Source: Prorocentrum cordatum (Eukaryota > Sar > Dinophyceae > Prorocentrales > Prorocentraceae). Taken from it: a DNA stretch of 64,000 bases. The translations under genes were made by a program, and so were the position numbers. Positions 26,178-35,936 of this stretch are shown in pieces; the first letter of the stretch is position 1; every line of letters begins with the position of its first letter. The notes beneath the pieces are model-generated. The model did no database searches and was not told the DNA's origin. It worked only from the letters and a program-made list of their open reading frames with translations. Where the stretch lies: positions 40,001 to 104,000 of the forward strand of contig CAUYUJ010000694.1 in NCBI GenBank assembly GCA_963575745.1, written 5' to 3'.

Positions 26178-26447
26178 TCACATCATCTCCTGTCCGAAAT
26201 ACGCATGTACAACCCGCGGCGAGATCATAATCGCATGCTCAACGGCCGAGATCTCGGCATCTGTCACCGTCGAAGTTGGGTCAATCGAGAACGCCGCACT
26301 ACACACCTCCGCCCAGATAATATCATGGCTGAGCGGCTGCCTTGAGAGTCTCGATATACGTCCAACATCTATCCAGCACCCGACTCTCACGCCGTCGCAA
26401 GAGACGCCACCATCGAATCCAGCTCTGATGGCACAGACGCGAAACAC
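26178..26447 (-). pseudogene. LINE 2 RNase H, N-terminal-type motifs placed last
   Basis: The frame reads FDGGVSCDGVRVGCWIDVG (Asp codon near 26414), then STVTDAEISAVEHAI (Glu codon near 26255). These look like strand 1 with its catalytic Asp and helix A with its catalytic Glu in the RNase H fold. They lie downstream of the Asp and AD-containing motifs, the reverse of the normal order. A frameshift around 26430 separates this from the upstream part. Confidence 0.65.
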
Positions 26448-27139
26448 CTGATCTCACTGTGGGGCGTAGGGCCGACACGGGCCGCATGAGTGAGTACATC
26501 TGCACGCATGTTCCATTCCCTGTATGTGTGGTCAACAATTTCTCTCCCATGAGAGGCAGGTCTAATGCCGAATTTTTGACACATGTTGTCCATTTGGTTA
26601 ATCATTCTGTTAATCCTATCTTGATAAGTACGATTTAGCACCCTCCAGACACCCTGAAGCCAAGACACCTCCAGAAGACTGTCCCCAGAGATGTACACCG
26701 GGATCCCGAAAGAGTCGAGGTCGCACACAACCTCCTTCATAGTTTGTAACGCAATACGTTTGGCCAGTTTGTCGTTGAAAGCTGGAGCCCCCTCTTGAGC
26801 CCCATATGTGCGCAGGTCGTTTCGTGTGATAGTATGCACATCCTGCAGGGCCCCACCTGTTGTACCGTACCCTTTTCTCTTCTTCAAATAACTCAGCATC
26901 GTCCGTGTACACATGTGCTCGCAGAACTGAATGTAAGCTGAATCTGTCGGCACCAAAGGACTCCCACCACTTGAGTCCGTAGAATTCACAGAAAGAAAAT
27001 AGCCAGCATCTCTGGCCAATAGCTTTACCTGAGCTGATATGTCTCCTCTTGAGCTGTGAAGCCTCTTGGAAGCGAAATATCCCCCGCAGGAACTCAGATG
27101 CATCAGTCCTGAGTCTGTCCCACAGTGGGCCATATGCAA
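26387..27139 (-). pseudogene. LINE 2 RNase H, C-terminal-type motifs placed first
   Basis: It contains VYISGDSLLEVSW (Asp at residue 153 of this frame, near 26683) followed by YREWNMRADVLTHAA. These resemble strand 4 with catalytic Asp and the last helix of RNase H. The same order and spacing occur in the inner LINE at 30788-30600. Confidence 0.7.
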
Positions 27140-27440
27140 CCGTAGTCATGTGGTGGTCTCGCCAGGTACGCTGCGTCGAAGAAATATCCCCATGAGAATC
27201 AGCACGCAAGATAGAAATAAAAATTGCAGCATCCTTGGCGGAGTTCCACACCGTACGGAGAAAGCGCTGCACCAACGTCGCAAATCCGTAGGATCGAAAT
27301 TGCTCTCTGGCCTCATGGCACCGTCGTCGGTTCCAGTCCGCCATCGTCTCCTCCTCCCTCCTTAGCCGTCGAAACATACGCACAAACACCAGCCCTCGAA
27401 AGCATTGAGCATATGTAATGAGGAGGTATCTGCAGTACAT
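27060..27440 (-). pseudogene. LINE 2 linker between reverse transcriptase and RNase H
   Basis: Frame with RRLRREEETMADWNRRRCHEA near the start. It aligns by position with HKREEETWEEFRDR of the inner LINE. The frame is lost at about 27060-27100, where the RNase H frame takes over. Confidence 0.6.
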
Positions 27441-27473
27441 GTTTCTAGATATTACAATGCCATACTCTGCACC

Positions 27474-28391
27474 TTATCCTGATAACGACAAAAAATAATA
27501 ACGAACAGCAACCGCTCTGTTACGAAAGAAATCCGCCTGTCCGATGAAGCAAGCACGAGCATCTTTGATGCGATACTCTACATCAGGATGTGCAGGCAAT
27601 ATGTAGGTAGAATATATATCATGACCCAATACTTTCAATCTGCACACACGTCGAAGACTAAAGCCCTGATACCCAGAGCATGCAGGAATAATCAAATCCT
27701 CACTGGCAGGTATATGTCCATCCCGGTCCACCCTCGCATTCTCCCCACATGTCATGTACAGCAGGCTGCTATCCTTCCACCTCATCCCCCAGTCGTGTAA
27801 TGGTAGGGTTAGATCGTGAATCATCTGAGCCAGCATGGTTGAGAAGGCAGACACAAGGTAGCAATTGTCCACCCACACAAAGTGGTTCACGACTGTCCGT
27901 CGCTCATACTCTCCACAGACACCCTCCAGCACATACCCCACTCCTCGACTGCCCCACTCCCGATAGATTGGTCCCCACATGGCACATATGATAAGATTGA
28001 AGAGAAGAGGCCCCTCAGGGCCGCCCGTCCTGATACAGACGTCCCAGTTGATATCGTGAATGGCCATACCCCCGACAACTAACGACCGCGTAGTGCAAAC
28101 CAGTGGCGCAAGCAACGCACACTGAAGATAAGCAGGAATATTGGCATGGCACATAGCTCTCTTAGCGTTTTGAAGGCTGCAGTGGTCAAACGCTTGTTTG
28201 ATATCGGCATTTGCAATATGGACCGTTTGATCCTTTCCCCAGATGCCCCCATGTTGAGCAAGAGCCTTGAGGGCCCCCACGATTTCCACAGTCTTACGTC
28301 CCTCCTGGAAGCCGTAGATGCCAGAGGTCCCATGAGTCCAGACCGAGAGACAAATTGTTCGACCAAGATCACCACACAAGCAGAGCACCAA
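27474..28391 (-). pseudogene. LINE 2 reverse transcriptase, palm motifs A-C
   Basis: Motifs in order: YGFQEGRKTVEIV, NADIKQAFDHCS (motif A, catalytic Asp), RTGGPEGPLLFNL (motif B, Glu where many LINEs have Gln), HFVWVDNCYLVS (motif C, V-D-N where Y-x-D-D is usual). The conserved Trp-Lys-Asp-Ser stretch follows. The upstream part of the domain is in another frame (29383-28079), so a frameshift near 28380 breaks it. The frame ends at TAA 27474-27476 and continues open beyond it. Confidence 0.88.
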
Positions 28392-28399
28392 CGGCTGAA

Positions 28400-29383
28400 A
28401 CTGTTTTGCAGACAGAGGTACCGTGCATCTGTCAATGATGTCCAGCTCGGCAGCTTGGGCATGAAGGCAATCAAATTCTGCCTCCAGTCCTGCGGAAACT
28501 GCCGTGTCAAACGAAATATCTCATCAAACATCCGAGCTACACTGCGCAAAGTCGCCCACGGCAATGCCGCGAGTAGTTCGCAAGGCAGCCTGTCGGGACC
28601 TGCGGCGCGCATGGACTTGAGACGTGACCGCGCCTGGCACACCACCGCCATTGTCAGTCCTTCTGTGCAGTACCCATCACATAGGTTATGTTGTGCATCC
28701 TTCCTCAAATCCTCCAACATCTCCACATCCCGTCCTCTGACCTCCTCCGAAGTATATCTCTGTCTGGTGTACGCTCTGATCTCCTCCACCCACTCCTCCC
28801 TGTCCTCTGATATCCGTCCCTGCACAATAAGATGCCTGATATTGCGACGTACTTTGCGCCTGCAAGCTGGGGAGGACCACGCGGCCAACGCCGCACGATA
28901 TGCCCTGCGATGTCTGTTGGCGCGTCTGCGCAAAGTGGGTACGTCCACTGACACAGGCAAAGGCTTCTGTCGGAGAATCTCCTGGCAAGCAGTGAGCTCA
29001 GCAGGTCTAACTGGAGGTAGTCCCCGTCCCGCGGTGGCAGTCGTGAATCTGATTTCCTCCTGCCCTGTATAAGCCCGAATAGCAGTCGACACAAGGTCCC
29101 CAGGAGAACAAGTAGAGTTGGCATCTCCTAAGACCCGATCGATTTCCTTTCGTGCCATGTTGAGGTCCCCCCAATTCACAATCTTATAACCCACCAGATT
29201 CTTCTCACGAGCTGCCGTCGGGATGCTACGTCTGACCAGCTCAACGCCTGGATCACTAAAAGTCCCCTGAAGCAGGCCGCGGTCACTAAGACGACTAGGA
29301 TTTGTCTTTCCCCCATTACTCATAATCGTTTCAACCGTCAACTTATCAATCACCCACGTCCTGGGAACAAACAATGTAGTCAA
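28400..29383 (-). pseudogene. LINE 2 endonuclease tail and reverse transcriptase N-terminal part
   Basis: It contains SDRGLLQGTF (position of the APE SDH motif), a basic linker, then AAGPDRLPCELLAALPW and QDWRQNLIAFMPKLPSW (finger motifs of LINE reverse transcriptases). It aligns by motif with GTAPGSDGIVAEVIRELPW in the inner LINE. The open frame continues to 28079 but the conserved reading moves to the 28391-27474 frame. Confidence 0.85.
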
Positions 29384-29702
29384 GAACCTTCTTACACGTA
29401 CCCCACCGAGATGTTCCGTAACTCCCCCATGTATGTAGTCGTCGTGGCAAGAGCGAATTGGCAGCCTTCATCCCCAGGCACCCTAAAAAGCAAAGAACAC
29501 GCTCGCGAAGTTGCCGTCGTACATCCCTCCTCTCCCGTTGTGCACCTCCCTCCTCACAGGTCCTCCTCTCCTCCTTGGTAGCACATCCCACCGCCTCATA
29601 GACCTTCCCAGTGCGTGAGCACTGCAGCTGGGTGGATGGAGGTAGCTCGACATTGGCATCGAGCAGCACAGATACAATCGTCCCTTTCCAGCGGCTGCGC
29701 AA
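29346..29702 (-). pseudogene. LINE 2 endonuclease, middle part
   Basis: It contains IVSVLLDANVELPP and KKVLDYIVCSQ. These correspond to VIPWVGMDAQTELEP and RVLDYILIP of the inner LINE. It begins exactly at the left edge of the inserted block. A frameshift near 29355 follows. Confidence 0.8.
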
Positions 29703-29710
29703 AGTGAAAA

Positions 29711-30001
29711 TTCCCGGAGAGCTCTCTGAGAGCTAGAAGGTTTTAGATTAGAAGCCGGACGGTGGTGGTGCCCGCCAGGAGCTCCTCCACGGCGGTCCAC
29801 GTCCGCCGCAGCGCCTCGCCCGAGCCAGCAGCTGGTTCGGGGGCGCTTTCCACGTGTGCCTGCACGCGTGCAGGCACGCGTGGAAGCGTTCCTGGCAGCG
29901 CTTCGGAAGCGCTGCAGGGGAGCTCCCCAGAGCTCTCTAGGAAAGATTTCCCCTCCCCGGCGGTCTCTTCGCTCTCCGGGTTTTGGAAGCTAACGAGTGA
30001 C
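29711..30001 (-). repeat. G repeat, left copy (inverted)
   Basis: About 290 bp. It contains the near-perfect palindrome GCCTGCACGCGTGCAGGC at about 29858-29875 and CAGCGCTTC-G-GAAGCGCTG at about 29898-29917. Confidence 0.88.
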
Positions 30002-30266: not shown

Positions 30267-30800
30267 CTAGGGTCCCTCACGCCCTCTCAACCTCTTTGGG
30301 GTTGGAGGCCCGAGGATCTCAGAGATAATCTGCCGAACACCTTGGAGCAGGCGTTCACAAGCTGTGAGCTCGCTATCTGTAACAGTGGCCCCCAGAGGGA
30401 GTAAAGAAGCCTCCTGGAAAACTCGTCGCCAGTGGTTGTCCCCAAATGAGACCTCCACATAGCAACCTAGAGCAGAGCCTTCAACACTCACGCCACCGTC
30501 CCATCCTCCACGGATACGTTTGATACAATGTCTCTGTTGTCGCAAATATCTGAAGTCAATCCATCTTCCCGTCCTTCCCCTCCTCGCCTCCCAAGTCAGC
30601 TCATCCGCAACACAATTGAACTCTCTGTAGATATGCTTCCACGGATCCGTCCCTACAGTGGCACACCTCATGTCGTAATCCTCAGCAAGTTGATTCATAT
30701 CATTTTGTAGACCATGCACTCTCCTGCGGTACGAACGATCACGGCATTCCCAGATCCCTCGGGCCCAGTTCACCACACACATACTATCTCCTGTCATTGC
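30267..30800 (-). other. LINE 1 RNase H-like domain in permuted order
   Basis: Numbering from the codon at 31331: AMTGDSMCVVNW (Asp182, codon 30788-30786), YREFNCVADELTWEA (Asp243, near 30605), GGWDGGVSVEGSALGCYVEV (Asp278, codon 30500-30498), ATVTDSELTACERLL (Glu321, near 30371), then a short basic tail. Canonical RNase H runs Asp (DG), Glu, Asp (DS), then the N-AD helix. Here the DG strand hairpin and the Glu helix come last. All four motifs are in one unbroken frame. Confidence 0.7.
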
Positions 30801-33800
30801 AACCGATAATGAGCCCTCCGAGCCTTCCTGCCAGACAGTTTCGTTGTTATACCCGTGGGCAATCCTACGAGCGAGCCTGTCGGAGTCCTCAGGGGAGTCC
30901 CACGTATCCACAAGACAAGGAGCACAGGGCGGTGTCCTGAAGATGGGTTCCCATCGAGGCTGTATTTTCGTCACGCACGCAACTACATTCCACCAGTCCG
31001 TCGCATTCCACTTGATGCTGAACCAGCGTAAATTACCACTCGCCGCCAGCATAAGACAATGCCAGCTGTCAGTGCTTGCATGCGCTCTCCCTCCCACTCT
31101 CCTCGCACCTTCCCTCCTCCTGGCTCCCGTGAACATGGATACAAGTGTGTCCCTCCGTAGTGACCATTCCCCCGCCCTGTGTAACATAGCCTGAAGCGTC
31201 TGGCGCCAGGCTCGTGCTCCACGCATGTCAGTGGAGGCGAAGGCCCGCTCATGAAACTGGGCCAGCTCCAACGCAAACTCGAAATTGGCTCGGACCACCT
31301 TCTCTAAGAGACTGCAGTGGCCAGCCTGCAAGAATAGCTCGTATGACTTCGGTGTGGTCCTGTCCCTGAACTCCTCCCACGTCTCCTCCTCCCTCTTGTG
31401 TCATCCTCGCATACCGTTGAGACACCTCCCCTCCCATACCTTAATCCTCTCCAGCAGTCGTAGGTTGCACGGCCAGCCTATACATCCGCGGTACACCACA
31501 GACTGCACACGAGCGGCGTACCTGCGAAACTTCTCCTTGAGTGAGACCGATCTGGAGCGATAAAACTGACTGTCAGCAAAATAGGCCTTCTTCCCTTTCT
31601 CAAGTCGATGGTACAAACCGTGGTAACCTTTGATTTCCGAACTGAGCTTCACTCCTAGTACCTCCACCTCCTCCTTCCTCGGCATTACAACAGTCGAGCG
31701 CAAGTGCACTGGGAGATCCTCATCTCCAGAAATCGCACAGATGGCTGGCGAGAGCGGGCAGAGCAGCGGCGGATCGCCACAGGTGTACGTCTGGCCAAAA
31801 AGTACATATGCCAAAGAATCCTCCTTCCAGTCCATCCCTGCCCGTCTGAGTGTTACCGTCATCATACCGATCATCTGTTGTAGCTGGAGTTGCGACGCAG
31901 CACAGAGCGCAACATTGTCCGCCCACAAGAAGTGGTGTACAAGAGCACCGTCCGTCCCCTCCCCTTCCAGTCGGACACCGTATCCTAAGGCATCCCAAGT
32001 CTGAATCACAGATCCCCAGATGCCCTCCAAGACAATATTGAAAAGTAGAGGTCCCTCCTTACCTCCCGTTCGGACCGATTTATTGTATCTCACCTCATCG
32101 CCGCACACGTTCTGAAACTCAAAGGTAGCAATGTTATCCAGCATGGGCTCCACAATGGCTCTGATGAGGCACACAGTGTACTTAAGGTACAGCATGGCAT
32201 TGATGATAGTGTGCAGTGTGACATTATCGAACGCCTTGTGTATGTCCAAGACTCACACGTGCAAAGACTCCGCCTTCCCCCACACATTTGCGTATCTAGT
32301 AAGAAGTGATAGTGGTGCCGTGACGTTAGTGACCTTCTGATCCTTCTCAAACCCGTATGTGCACAACCGTCGGTTCACAGGAAATGCATCAATGAAAAGC
32401 AACACACATGCCATGTACCATTTACTCATCACACTGATCAGGCAAATCCCTCTGGTGTTGGAGAGTCGCGTAGCATCCCGCATCTTCGGCACAAGTTGGA
32501 TACTGAGCTGCCTCCACGTCTCAGGGCTAGAGGCACCCTGCACGAAAATCCTCTGAAAAGCACGCCGAACAAACAAGAGGCTCCTCCACGGCAACTCACG
32601 GATGACCTCAGCAACGATTCCATCGCTACCAGGTGCCGTGCCAGGCTTCAAAGACGCACGAGCCTGCATGAGCATGCCCATCGTGCTGACTCTTCCCTCC
32701 ACCCCACGGTCGTTGTGTCTGAGCTCCTGAAAGGCCTCCAAAGTCCGTTTTTCCTCCTCCGAGTTCGTGTAAGACGCCGTCGCATACCTCGTGATCTCCG
32801 TACTCCACCTAGTCCTGTCCATTGTCAGCACACCCTCACACTCCAGCTCCTTGAGGATACACCGTGAGGTCTTACTGGATCCCTTGTGGTCCTGCAGGAG
32901 TTGGTTCCTCCTATGCTGTCTCCTAAGGGTATTCCTCCTACGCAGCAGTTGTTCACGAGTATTCCCAAGGGCCCCACGCCTGATGACAGACTCCACCTCT
33001 ATGAGCTCCCTGGGCCTCTGAATAGGTTTGCAGTTGGGGCGCGCCTTAGTGTGGTCCACAAGCTTTGCCGTCTCCAAGAGTACCCGTCCGACCTGCTGTA
33101 GGTCCGTCCCTACCGTGTCAGATGCAAGCCCCTCAATCGACACATCCGCAAGCACACGAAACATGTTCCTCGCCGTGTCATCCGTCGGCTGCCAGCCAAC
33201 CATGGACACAGGGCGGGGTGGCAAAGCTGGGCGCCTGATCTCCGTAGTCTTGAGATTTACCCAGACCAGAGCGTGATCACTATAGGCACTGGCTTTTGCA
33301 CGTATACCTGGCGTAGCTTTGATGGGTTCCACAAACTGGACCTGGCATCTGATTTCCTGGTGAGCTCTTGCCTCATCCGCGCACCAACGTGTAGGGATGA
33401 GTATATAGTCAAGCACACGCTGCACATGTGTGGAACAGTACGGTATATGTGTGATACGTCGAGCTCCATATGTGTTCGCCGCACAGATCCCCCAAGTACT
33501 CATGAACCTCATAAGCATGTCCCTCCTCTCTGCATGGTAGTTCCCCTCCTCCCTCCTCCCGTCCACCTGCATAAGACCTCCCCCCGTCATTCCCAGCATA
33601 CCTGGTTCAAGTTCCGTCTGAGCATCCATCCCCACCCATGGTATGACTCCAGCCTGTGTAGTTTGAAGCATAGTAACACTGCACTTTGTAAGTACATCTA
33701 AGTATTCCCCCAAGTGGTCCACCTCACGCATCACGCATGGTAGATACACTGATATAACTAGAGCACCCCTGAATTCGACACACGCAAATCGTACCCCACT

Positions 33801-34106
33801 CCGTCGTGCAATCACATGTGGTGCCCAATCCCGGCACCATGCAACCGCCGCATTGGAGCAGGAGCTATAGTGAATCTCCCATCCACATCTATTAAAAGTA
33901 TTTGCACTGGTATGCTCACTCTTGCAGGCACACCATTTGAATTGACCTGGCTTCACATGCAGCGACCAGGTTGGGCACTTGACCGTCGGATATTTTCTGC
34001 ACATTCCAGGTTGCAAAAACGGTCTCTGTCGCAGCCCTACCGCCCCGTTAATGATTAGGGCACCGTAGTGTCTGAAGAAACTGCACCTGGTTAATGTCAG
34101 GCTCAA
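30267..34106 (-). pseudogene. LINE 1 ORF2: endonuclease, reverse transcriptase, permuted RNase H
   Basis: One continuous frame over 3.84 kb (about 1,279 codons) broken only by TGA at 32253-32255 and TGA at 31401-31403. The APE-type endonuclease comes first (SEHT, VISVYLPC, VGMDAQTE, RVLDYILIP, YSDHALVWV). Then the reverse transcriptase: GTAPGSDGIVAEVIRELPW, YGFEKDQKVTN, DIHKAFDNV just after the first TGA, RTGGKEGPLLFN, HHFLWADNVAL. Last is an RNase H-like region after the second TGA. The frame opens inside ORF1 and is shifted by one base relative to it (overlap 34048-34106), so ORF2 would need a +1 shift or re-initiation. The first in-frame codon of the opening is TTG, so I do not claim a start. 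Confidence 0.88.
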
Positions 34107-35145
34107 CGTGTGTCAAATTGGCGCCATAGAGGTTCCATCCTTTTGTCGGTCCCCAGTCTGCAATCAACGTCTTTTGTGTAGTATCCTCAGCATTCGGCAT
34201 ATACCACATATATGTCATTGGCGGACCCGTCTCACCTCGAAGAATAGCCGTCGCATTGCCCTTGATATCAGAAAATAGTGCTTGAAATCTTCCTACCGCC
34301 CGAACATGTTCTATCTTCCATGGCTGGCATTCAACTTGAAATCGCACATTGGGAGGCAATGAAGTGAGTCCCCGCCTGTAGTCATTCTCCCACACACGTT
34401 TCGCTTCCCATCGGATCTCAGAGGATGTACCTGGTTTGAAATAGATCCTACCCCTCGTGCACGGCCAATATCTGCCAGTATTCTCCTGAACCGTCCGATC
34501 CAAGTCCAGTGCCACCCTTTGTGTAGCATCAATTTGTTTAGAGTCAATAAGACCATTCATCGCCGTCGTCAGTGCCTCCTGTGAAAGAGCCTCCCGCTGA
34601 CGTATCTCACGGCTCCTCCATCCCTCCCTTGAAACCCATCCCTTGAACTCAACATAACGTGGATTCCAAGCAGGATCGTGCCTGTCCGTACCCGCCTTCG
34701 TGGATCCACTTGCTACCGACAGCCCGTCCCCCTGCTTGAGCTTCTGAACTTCATTGGTGAGGTCCTGGATCGCCGACACTGTTTTCGAGACCCTGGAGTC
34801 CAGAGATGTTTTCAGACCGTCCATTTCCGTACGAATAGAGTTCCTGAACGATTGCATGTCTGCCGTCATAGTCTGTTGTCCCGTCATGATAGATCGAAAC
34901 ATCTGTTCAATGAGGCCAGCTTCCTGGGCAACCTCATTCGCACCCAATGTTTGTCCCGCACCTCCTCCTTCTCCTTTCCCTCCTCCTTTGACATTACGAG
35001 CACGGACAGCTCTAGCAAACGCCCCACCCCCATCATCAATTGTCATGTCCTGGCCCGTCGCATGCAAGCCTGGAGCACCTGAAACTGAAGAACCTGCTGG
35101 CATCGCTGGTGCAGCACCTGAAACTGAAGAACCTGCTGCAGCCAT
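34048..35145 (-). CDS. LINE 1 ORF1 protein (probable RNA-binding chaperone)
   Basis: Open from at least 35394. I choose the Met at 35145 (KRKMAAAG) because the upstream part is a 45-bp tandem duplication, giving about 365 residues. Order: a Gly/Ser-rich N-terminus with two GSSVSGA repeats, a coiled-coil-like stretch (about residues 70-140, from EAGLIEQMF to EVQKLKQGD), then a conserved C-terminal part with EFKGWVSREGW, GRIYFKPGTSSEIRWEAKR and ILRGETGPP. The last block recurs in the LINE 2 fragment at 36670-36174. ORF1 proteins of LINEs usually bind the element RNA. That role is inferred from position and coiled coil only. Confidence 0.75.
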   Translation of the reverse strand: MAAAGSSVSGAAPAMPAGSSVSGAPGLHATGQDMTIDDGGGAFARAVRARNVKGGGKGEGGGAGQTLGANEVAQEAGLIEQMFRSIMTGQQTMTADMQSFRNSIRTEMDGLKTSLDSRVSKTVSAIQDLTNEVQKLKQGDGLSVASGSTKAGTDRHDPAWNPRYVEFKGWVSREGWRSREIRQREALSQEALTTAMNGLIDSKQIDATQRVALDLDRTVQENTGRYWPCTRGRIYFKPGTSSEIRWEAKRVWENDYRRGLTSLPPNVRFQVECQPWKIEHVRAVGRFQALFSDIKGNATAILRGETGPPMTYMWYMPNAEDTTQKTLIADWGPTKGWNLYGANLTHVEPDINQVQFLQTLRCPNH

Positions 35146-35154
35146 CTTCCTTTT

Positions 35155-35244
35155 GTGGCTGCGTAAGATATTGAAATCGTAACCTTCACCCTGCACGAAG
35201 TGGTTACGCAAGATATTGAAATCGTAACCTTCACCCTGCACAAA
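35155..35244 (-). repeat. 45-bp tandem duplication upstream of ORF1
   Basis: Two copies in frame, each reading FVQGEGYDFNILR plus two residues, directly before the chosen ORF1 start. Confidence 0.9.
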
Positions 35245-35403
35245 CGGTACTGTTGGTGTGAGCGATGGCACACAAATAACAGCTCTCCTGTCACTTCGAG
35301 GTGTCCCGACCTGTCTGGCTAGATAGTCCCAGTCAGCGTGACTGAAGTCGGATACCCAGCACTCCGTCTTTCCAAGAGAGAGGAAAAGAGACAATTACAG
35401 CAG

Positions 35404-35599: not shown

Positions 35600-35936
35600 G
35601 CCTTGAGCCAGAACACAAAACCTGGAGTGCAAACAGAACACACACCGGACAGCTTTCCTGGCGAGCTCTCGGTCGGACGCTCGCGTGAGCCGCTTCTGGA
35701 GCTCCGGGGGGCTCCCCTGCAGCGCTTCTGAAGCGCTGACAGGGACGCTTCCACGCGTGCCTGCGCGCGTGCAGGCACGCGTGAACGCTTGCCGGATGCT
35801 CTCCCGGACCCGCTGCCGGGCCGGGCAACCCTTTCCGGGGATCGTGGACCGGCGGAGATGGGCTGCTGCTGGGCACCACCGCCGTCCGGCTTCTAATCTA
35901 AAACCCTCTAGCTCTCACAGAGCTCTCCGGGAATAT
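35600..35936 (+). repeat. G repeat, right copy
   Basis: It contains GCAGCGCTTC-T-GAAGCGCTG at about 35719-35738 and the 30-bp near-palindrome running from ACGCGTGCCTGC to GCAGGCACGCGT at about 35753-35782. It ends CTCTCCGGGAA. It is inverted relative to the copy at 29711-30001. Confidence 0.88.

Follow-up and report, generated by a model that had tools for sequence, protein, structure and literature searches.

RNase H is among the oldest and best-studied nuclease folds. The canonical RNases H of long interspersed nuclear elements (LINEs) are thought to strip the RNA from the RNA-cDNA hybrid, and those of plant L1 elements belong to the RVT_3 family. Archaeal-like versions have been described in plant L1 and oomycete Utopia LINEs, in which, in the available part of that account, an arginine replaces the histidine of the D-E-D-H/R-D catalytic set (PMC4640811). 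Here we have analyzed two diverged LINEs, LINE 1 and LINE 2, found in a stretch of 64,000 nucleotides (the window) of the dinoflagellate Prorocentrum cordatum (contig CAUYUJ010000694.1, positions 40,001 to 104,000). We propose, with a probability of roughly 85%, that in LINE 1 the second open reading frame (ORF2) ends in a type 1 RNase H domain of the archaeal-like (D-E-D-R-D) class that has undergone natural circular permutation, the break falling between helix A and strand 4. The evidence comprises the order of the motifs, its conservation in four elements, a match of the first-encoded half to RVT_3 and RNases H, the register of the second-encoded half and a confident structure model.

Permutation inside the RNase H-like fold class is already in print. 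A preprint reports, in one sentence and a figure legend, a permuted pair of 'Ribonuclease H-like' domains recognized by structure comparison (PMC12667903). Its available portion names neither the members, nor the cut point, nor the function, and 'retrotrans' does not occur in the main text; the LINE family, the catalytic conservation and the cut point described below were not found there. In the accessible parts of two other papers, 'circularly permuted' refers to DNA methylases (PMC7824862) and no permuted RNase H is described (PMC3578095). A search of the literature by title and abstract opening, with most subscription journals outside it, did not turn up a naturally permuted RNase H from any LINE or other retroelement.

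The C-terminus of LINE 1 ORF2 (30267-31400, minus strand) reads upon translation GDS, YRE.N..AD, WDGG and TDSE in a single open frame. We number residues along the 377-aa open frame 31400-30267, in which Asp182, Asp243, Asp278 and Glu321 of the shorter frame 31331-30267 become D205, D266, D301 and E344. A previous description of this DNA, made from the letters alone (the sequence-only reading), had placed these four residues and this motif order in one unbroken frame, and the translation of 31331-30267 reproduces them exactly. The features of LINE 1 ORF2 are as follows.

30267..34112, minus strand: LINE 1 ORF2 frame, with endonuclease-like motifs followed by reverse transcriptase (RT; RVT_1 match) and, C-terminally, the proposed permuted RNase H
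30573..30821, minus strand: N-terminal half of the proposed permuted RNase H (strand 4 with GDS, helices B and D, strand 5, YREFN, helix E)
30788-30786, minus strand: codon of D205 (GDS), N-terminal half, strand 4
30626-30624, minus strand: codon of R259 (YREFN), N-terminal half
30605-30603, minus strand: codon of D266 (AD), N-terminal half, helix E
30528..30572, minus strand: linker joining helix E to strand 1, given a short strand and a short helix in the model; R-W-D-Y is common to the relative P0002 (see below)
30312..30527, minus strand: C-terminal half (strand 1 with WDGG, strands 2 and 3, helix A), from the alignment to E. coli RNase HI and the model
30500-30498, minus strand: codon of D301 (WDGG), C-terminal half, strand 1
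30371-30369, minus strand: codon of E344, C-terminal half, helix A

The RT of LINE 1 lies in the same frame as the RNase H, as expected of a LINE, and matches RVT_1 with an expectation value (E) of 1.7e-10. The parent frame 34112-30267 carries two in-frame TGA codons (codons 620 and 904), because of which this copy is probably dead; both are upstream of the RNase H stretch, which is itself unbroken.

The same order of motifs was found in three other elements. A protein search with the 377-aa LINE 1 query gave P0002 (656 aa, source ena) as its sole match, with 42% identity over 96% (48.6% over 658 aa when LINE 1 ORF2 is compared; RVT_1 E 7.5e-12). The P0002 query in turn found P0004 (858 aa, source jgi, 17 member sequences), with 32% identity in the RT part and 30% in the C-terminal part. 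Both proteins come from other contigs, both read GDS, YRE.N..AD, DGG and E, and their frames stay open from the stretch of RT that is present, through the region in between, to the end of the RNase H. A protein search with longer candidates gave no further relative, and scans of viral and genome contigs gave no stretch that tblastn confirmed as one. The fourth element is LINE 2, in the same window, where the sequence-only reading had already noticed the order; GDS (Asp codon 26683-26681), YREWN..AD (~26525-26500), FDGG (Asp codon 26414) and TDAE (Glu codon 26255) could all be located, with the halves in two frames. Its domain (26178-27145) crosses a frame break, being divided between the open reading frames 26387-27145 and 26178-26453.

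26178..29467, minus strand: LINE 2 ORF2, split into several frames; RVT_1 E 2.8e-6, below the gathering score
26465..26788, minus strand: LINE 2 counterpart of the N-terminal half, with GDS and YREWN..AD; 36.7% identity to LINE 1 over 109 aa
26193..26429, minus strand: LINE 2 counterpart of the C-terminal half, with FDGG and TDAE; 30.4% over 79 aa, in a frame different from that of the N-terminal half

In their N-terminal halves all four elements can be aligned over 83 columns without a gap. Among the 358 columns shared by LINE 1, P0002 and P0004, 75 are invariant and nine of these are acidic, D205, D266, D301 and E344 all being among the nine. These four and R259 are still invariant when LINE 2 is added (as a row of two pieces joined), so that the conserved D-E-D-D catalytic set of type 1 RNases H is present in four elements as D301, E344, D205 and D266. 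Of the TDSE motif only the glutamate is conserved; its first aspartate, also listed in the sequence-only reading, is a glutamate in P0002 and a glutamine in P0004. Four mutually diverged elements with the same order support an inherited architecture and not a local scramble, as had been argued before from the two elements of the window.

This conservation bears on the possibility that the domain, though permuted, is catalytically dead or structural and aids the binding of the RNA-cDNA hybrid. The catalytic activity is a prediction, and the breaks in ORF2 come before the domain in LINE 1 and fall inside it in LINE 2. However, the four catalytic positions and the arginine do not vary among elements that are down to ~30% identical, and we consider a dead domain unlikely.

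Judged from sequence comparison, the first-encoded half is the counterpart of the second half of an RNase H. The unedited P0002 protein matches Pfam RVT_3 (PF13456) with 22.1 bits, the gathering score being 21.6, and the match covers only positions 55-119 of the 123 of the profile, from strand 4 to helix E. The cut-out, native-order domains of LINE 1 (E = 0.052) and P0004 give weaker matches to the same part of the profile, below the gathering score, while the whole 377-aa frame of LINE 1 had no family match and whole P0004 no RVT_3 row. When the native-order profile of four rows was compared with the PDB, five of the six matches were RNases H (the best 3u3g, 17.9 bits, E 0.02), all of them within the first-encoded half; a native profile of two rows matched seven DNMT1 chains, none with an E below 0.9. 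Against a profile of RNase HI this half alone scored 19.5, which was reached by 3 of 300 shuffles.

The second-encoded half was placed with hhalign on a doubled target, two tandem copies of a profile made from ten RNases HI of bacteria, phages and plasmids. The native family profile aligned to it over 139 columns across the seam, with D205, D266, D301 and E344 on D70, D134, D10' and E48'. In none of 400 shuffles of the C-terminal half, and in none of 400 full shuffles, did an aspartate fall on D10' together with a glutamate on E48'. Swapping the halves to the canonical order raised the RVT_3 score by 2.2-4.1 bits: from 24.7 to 27.0 in P0002, from 13.9 to 18.0 in LINE 1 and from 14.3 to 16.5 in P0004. 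Each of these canonical-order scores was higher than the protein's own controls with a shuffled C-terminal half (10 in total), which reached 23.3-23.7 bits in P0002 (n=4), 14.0-15.8 in LINE 1 (n=3) and 14.4-15.7 in P0004 (n=3). The profile of four rows in canonical order had an RNase H as its best PDB match, with 20.9 bits (E 0.0027; native 17.9); five of its seven matches were RNases H, and the alignment enters helix A. For a profile of three rows the best PDB match was 11.8 bits in native order with the linker, 15.5 in canonical order and 12.5 with the C-terminal half shuffled.

AlphaFold2 was run with five alignment rows (model numbers plus 165 give those of the 377-aa frame). The predicted local distance difference test (pLDDT) of the five models was 62-81, and the best of them (pLDDT 81, predicted template modelling score, pTM, 0.78) has the order b4-aB-aD-b5-aE-linker-b1-b2-b3-aA, where b stands for strands and a for helices. 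The first half comprises b4 (199-204), aB (207-214), aD (222-242), b5 (254-256) and aE (263-273), and the second b1 (295-305), b2 (308-318), b3 (325-333) and aA (340-363). Strands 1 to 3 and helix A end the model and strand 4 begins the domain, just as the sequence-only reading had anticipated. The C-terminal half has a pLDDT of ~89-97 per block, and the linker forms a strand (E113-116 in model numbering) and a helix (H118-124) with pLDDT >90. D301 lies within b1, E344 close to the start of aA, D205 right after b4 and D266 in aE; E. coli RNase HI has its catalytic residues at the corresponding places of its secondary structure. The canonical order of type 1 RNases H, b1-b2-b3-aA-b4-aB..-b5-aE, is not that of the model and, because its elements run b4-aB-aD-b5-aE-b1-b2-b3-aA, we regard the domain as a permuted variant and not as a standard RVT_3 member. 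The order of elements and the pLDDT of the model are compatible with the RNase H fold, a sheet of strand order 32145 with helices on both sides. The model of full P0002 was weak (pLDDT 52, pTM 0.34), with the same order of elements in the corresponding region.

Some results weigh against this assignment. The extension of the hhalign alignment across the seam does not have a significant score by itself, the C-terminal half alone beats its shuffles moderately (11 of 300 reach its score), and in the canonical-order alignment to the PDB, as we read it, the glutamate is three residues off its expected place. Order-bound structure searches do not place RNase H first. Foldseek matched part of the model to three RNases H (62-84 columns, 3.3-3.5 A, E 0.13-0.24) and to three badnavirus-type polyproteins (63-70 columns, 2.7 A, E 0.06-0.31), a pattern that speaks for the assignment, being the one expected when an aligner bound to order meets a permutation. 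VIA-align puts CinA above RNase H, and 3aly is the only RNase H chain among the matches listed (50 rows). The RNase H-like permuted structure foreseen in the sequence-only reading is borne out by the order of elements and the sequence register, while the fold search did not rank an RNase H first.

In isolation the C-terminal half is only weakly similar in sequence to an RNase H first half, and in native order no family matches it; both results would also fit a truncated RNase H remnant (GDS...AD) followed by a separate small domain (WDGG...E), with no common active site. We find this quite improbable. AlphaFold2 gives one compact domain (pTM 0.78), the halves have been kept together with conserved D, D, D and E in four elements, and half an RNase H sheet alone would be unstable. 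The structure searches could likewise be read as an alpha/beta fold of the CinA/anticodon-binding type (SCOP c.51), with a convergent match to the RNase H motifs. This seems very improbable, since native P0002 is above the RVT_3 gathering score, RNases H are among the PDB sequence matches while CinA is not, and the acidic residues are conserved together with the R-E-x-N-x-x-A-D motif. An assembly error or local rearrangement in one genome could be imagined from the presence of LINE 1 and LINE 2 in one window; it is already contradicted by the same order in P0002 (ena) and P0004 (jgi), on other contigs, and is extremely improbable.

A canonical first half upstream of the domain was also looked for. 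In P0002 and LINE 1 the 192-193 residues that precede the domain had no RNase H family match, nor did the nearest ~70 upstream residues of P0004 scanned as a separate piece, and in the alignment of LINE 1, P0002 and P0004 there is no invariant aspartate in DG context upstream of GDS. The canonical DG-E pair that, according to the sequence-only reading, would make the C-terminal piece a separate domain was not found in the relatives. A conserved helix immediately before strand 4, [DE][KR]LA[KR]R[LI]A (LINE 1 residues 174-181, 30858-30881), was considered as the true helix A and rejected because its pLDDT is ~50, as against >90 and an invariant glutamate in the C-terminal helix A. In P0002 this helix is preceded by 'MADG' (442-445; helix region ~442-465), which resembles a relic of strand 1; LINE 1 and LINE 2 have no aspartate in that column. 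Helix and MADG may possibly be what remains of a first RNase H copy that was lost.

In the permuted RNase H that we propose, the domain would now begin at strand 4 and finish where helix A ends, and the linker would bridge helix E and strand 1, its former termini. D301, E344, D205 and D266, with R259, would come together in one two-metal active site. Its most likely role in retrotransposition would be to clear the RNA from the RNA-cDNA hybrid, allowing the synthesis of the second strand. The arrangement likely goes back to an ancestral element in which the RNase H domain behind the RT was duplicated in tandem; copy 1 would then have lost its first half and copy 2 its second half, giving the present order. 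We consider it likely that a whole LINE lineage, probably of marine protists, has a permuted and predicted catalytically competent RNase H, fixed once in its ancestor by tandem duplication and trimming.

If true, a retroelement would for the first time be seen to carry a permuted RNase H, which would show that such an element can rewire a catalytic domain and yet keep it, and living relatives might yield an intermediate with two complete tandem copies. It would offer a natural case for studies of folding and of permutation via duplication, and a clade marker for these LINEs. Standard annotation would miss or half-see a permuted RNase H because motif order is used for detection (here RVT_3 covers half of the domain or misses it), which may explain LINEs seemingly without RNase H.

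The rest of LINE 1 and its surroundings showed other features. Upstream of its RT are GMDAQTE, ILIPTRW and SDH, which by eye we take to be endonuclease-like motifs; the region 32253-34112 had no endonuclease family match. The RT active-site box is WADN in LINE 1 (31401-32252), P0002 and P0004 and WVDN in LINE 2 (27474-28520), the usual form being YxDD; this is a further peculiarity common to the family. An open frame overlaps ORF2 at its upstream end.

34048..35394, minus strand: probable ORF1 of LINE 1, an open frame that overlaps ORF2

This frame had no family match above the cut-off, and no DNMT match either. It contains short direct repeats, two adjacent copies of 45 nt (91%) at 35155-35244 and two copies of 29 nt (97%, starts 39 nt apart) at 35071-35138. 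Two long inverted-repeat pairs (137 nt, 80%; 85 nt, 92%) with palindromic stretches lie on either side of LINE 1, at 29710-29935 and 35699-35934, ~6 kb apart; unusual for a LINE, they are perhaps copies of another element. No dinoflagellate spliced-leader was found in the window (with up to 3 mismatches allowed), and Rfam gave no match at gathering thresholds.

Protist LINEs with ORF1 and ORF2 are also known from Symbiodinium, where they carry a DNMT (PMC5890265), unlike the probable ORF1 described here. In the available text of that paper 'RNase H' appears once, and an RNase is named in a legend on a Pol ORF, apparently of DIRS (PMC5890265). The RNase H of oomycete Utopia is located upstream of the RT, whereas here it is C-terminal in ORF2, and the D-E-D-R-D order of plant L1 and Utopia becomes here D-R-D followed by D-E, as far as the accessible part of their description allows the comparison (PMC4640811). 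On the same basis, R259 of YRE, invariant in four elements, corresponds to the R of their D-E-D-R-D set (PMC4640811). Compared with the RNases H of E. coli (rnhA), LC11 and S. tokodaii, the domain proposed here differs in the permutation at helix A/strand 4 and in its low sequence similarity, and shares with them the same catalytic set and the same secondary-structure elements.
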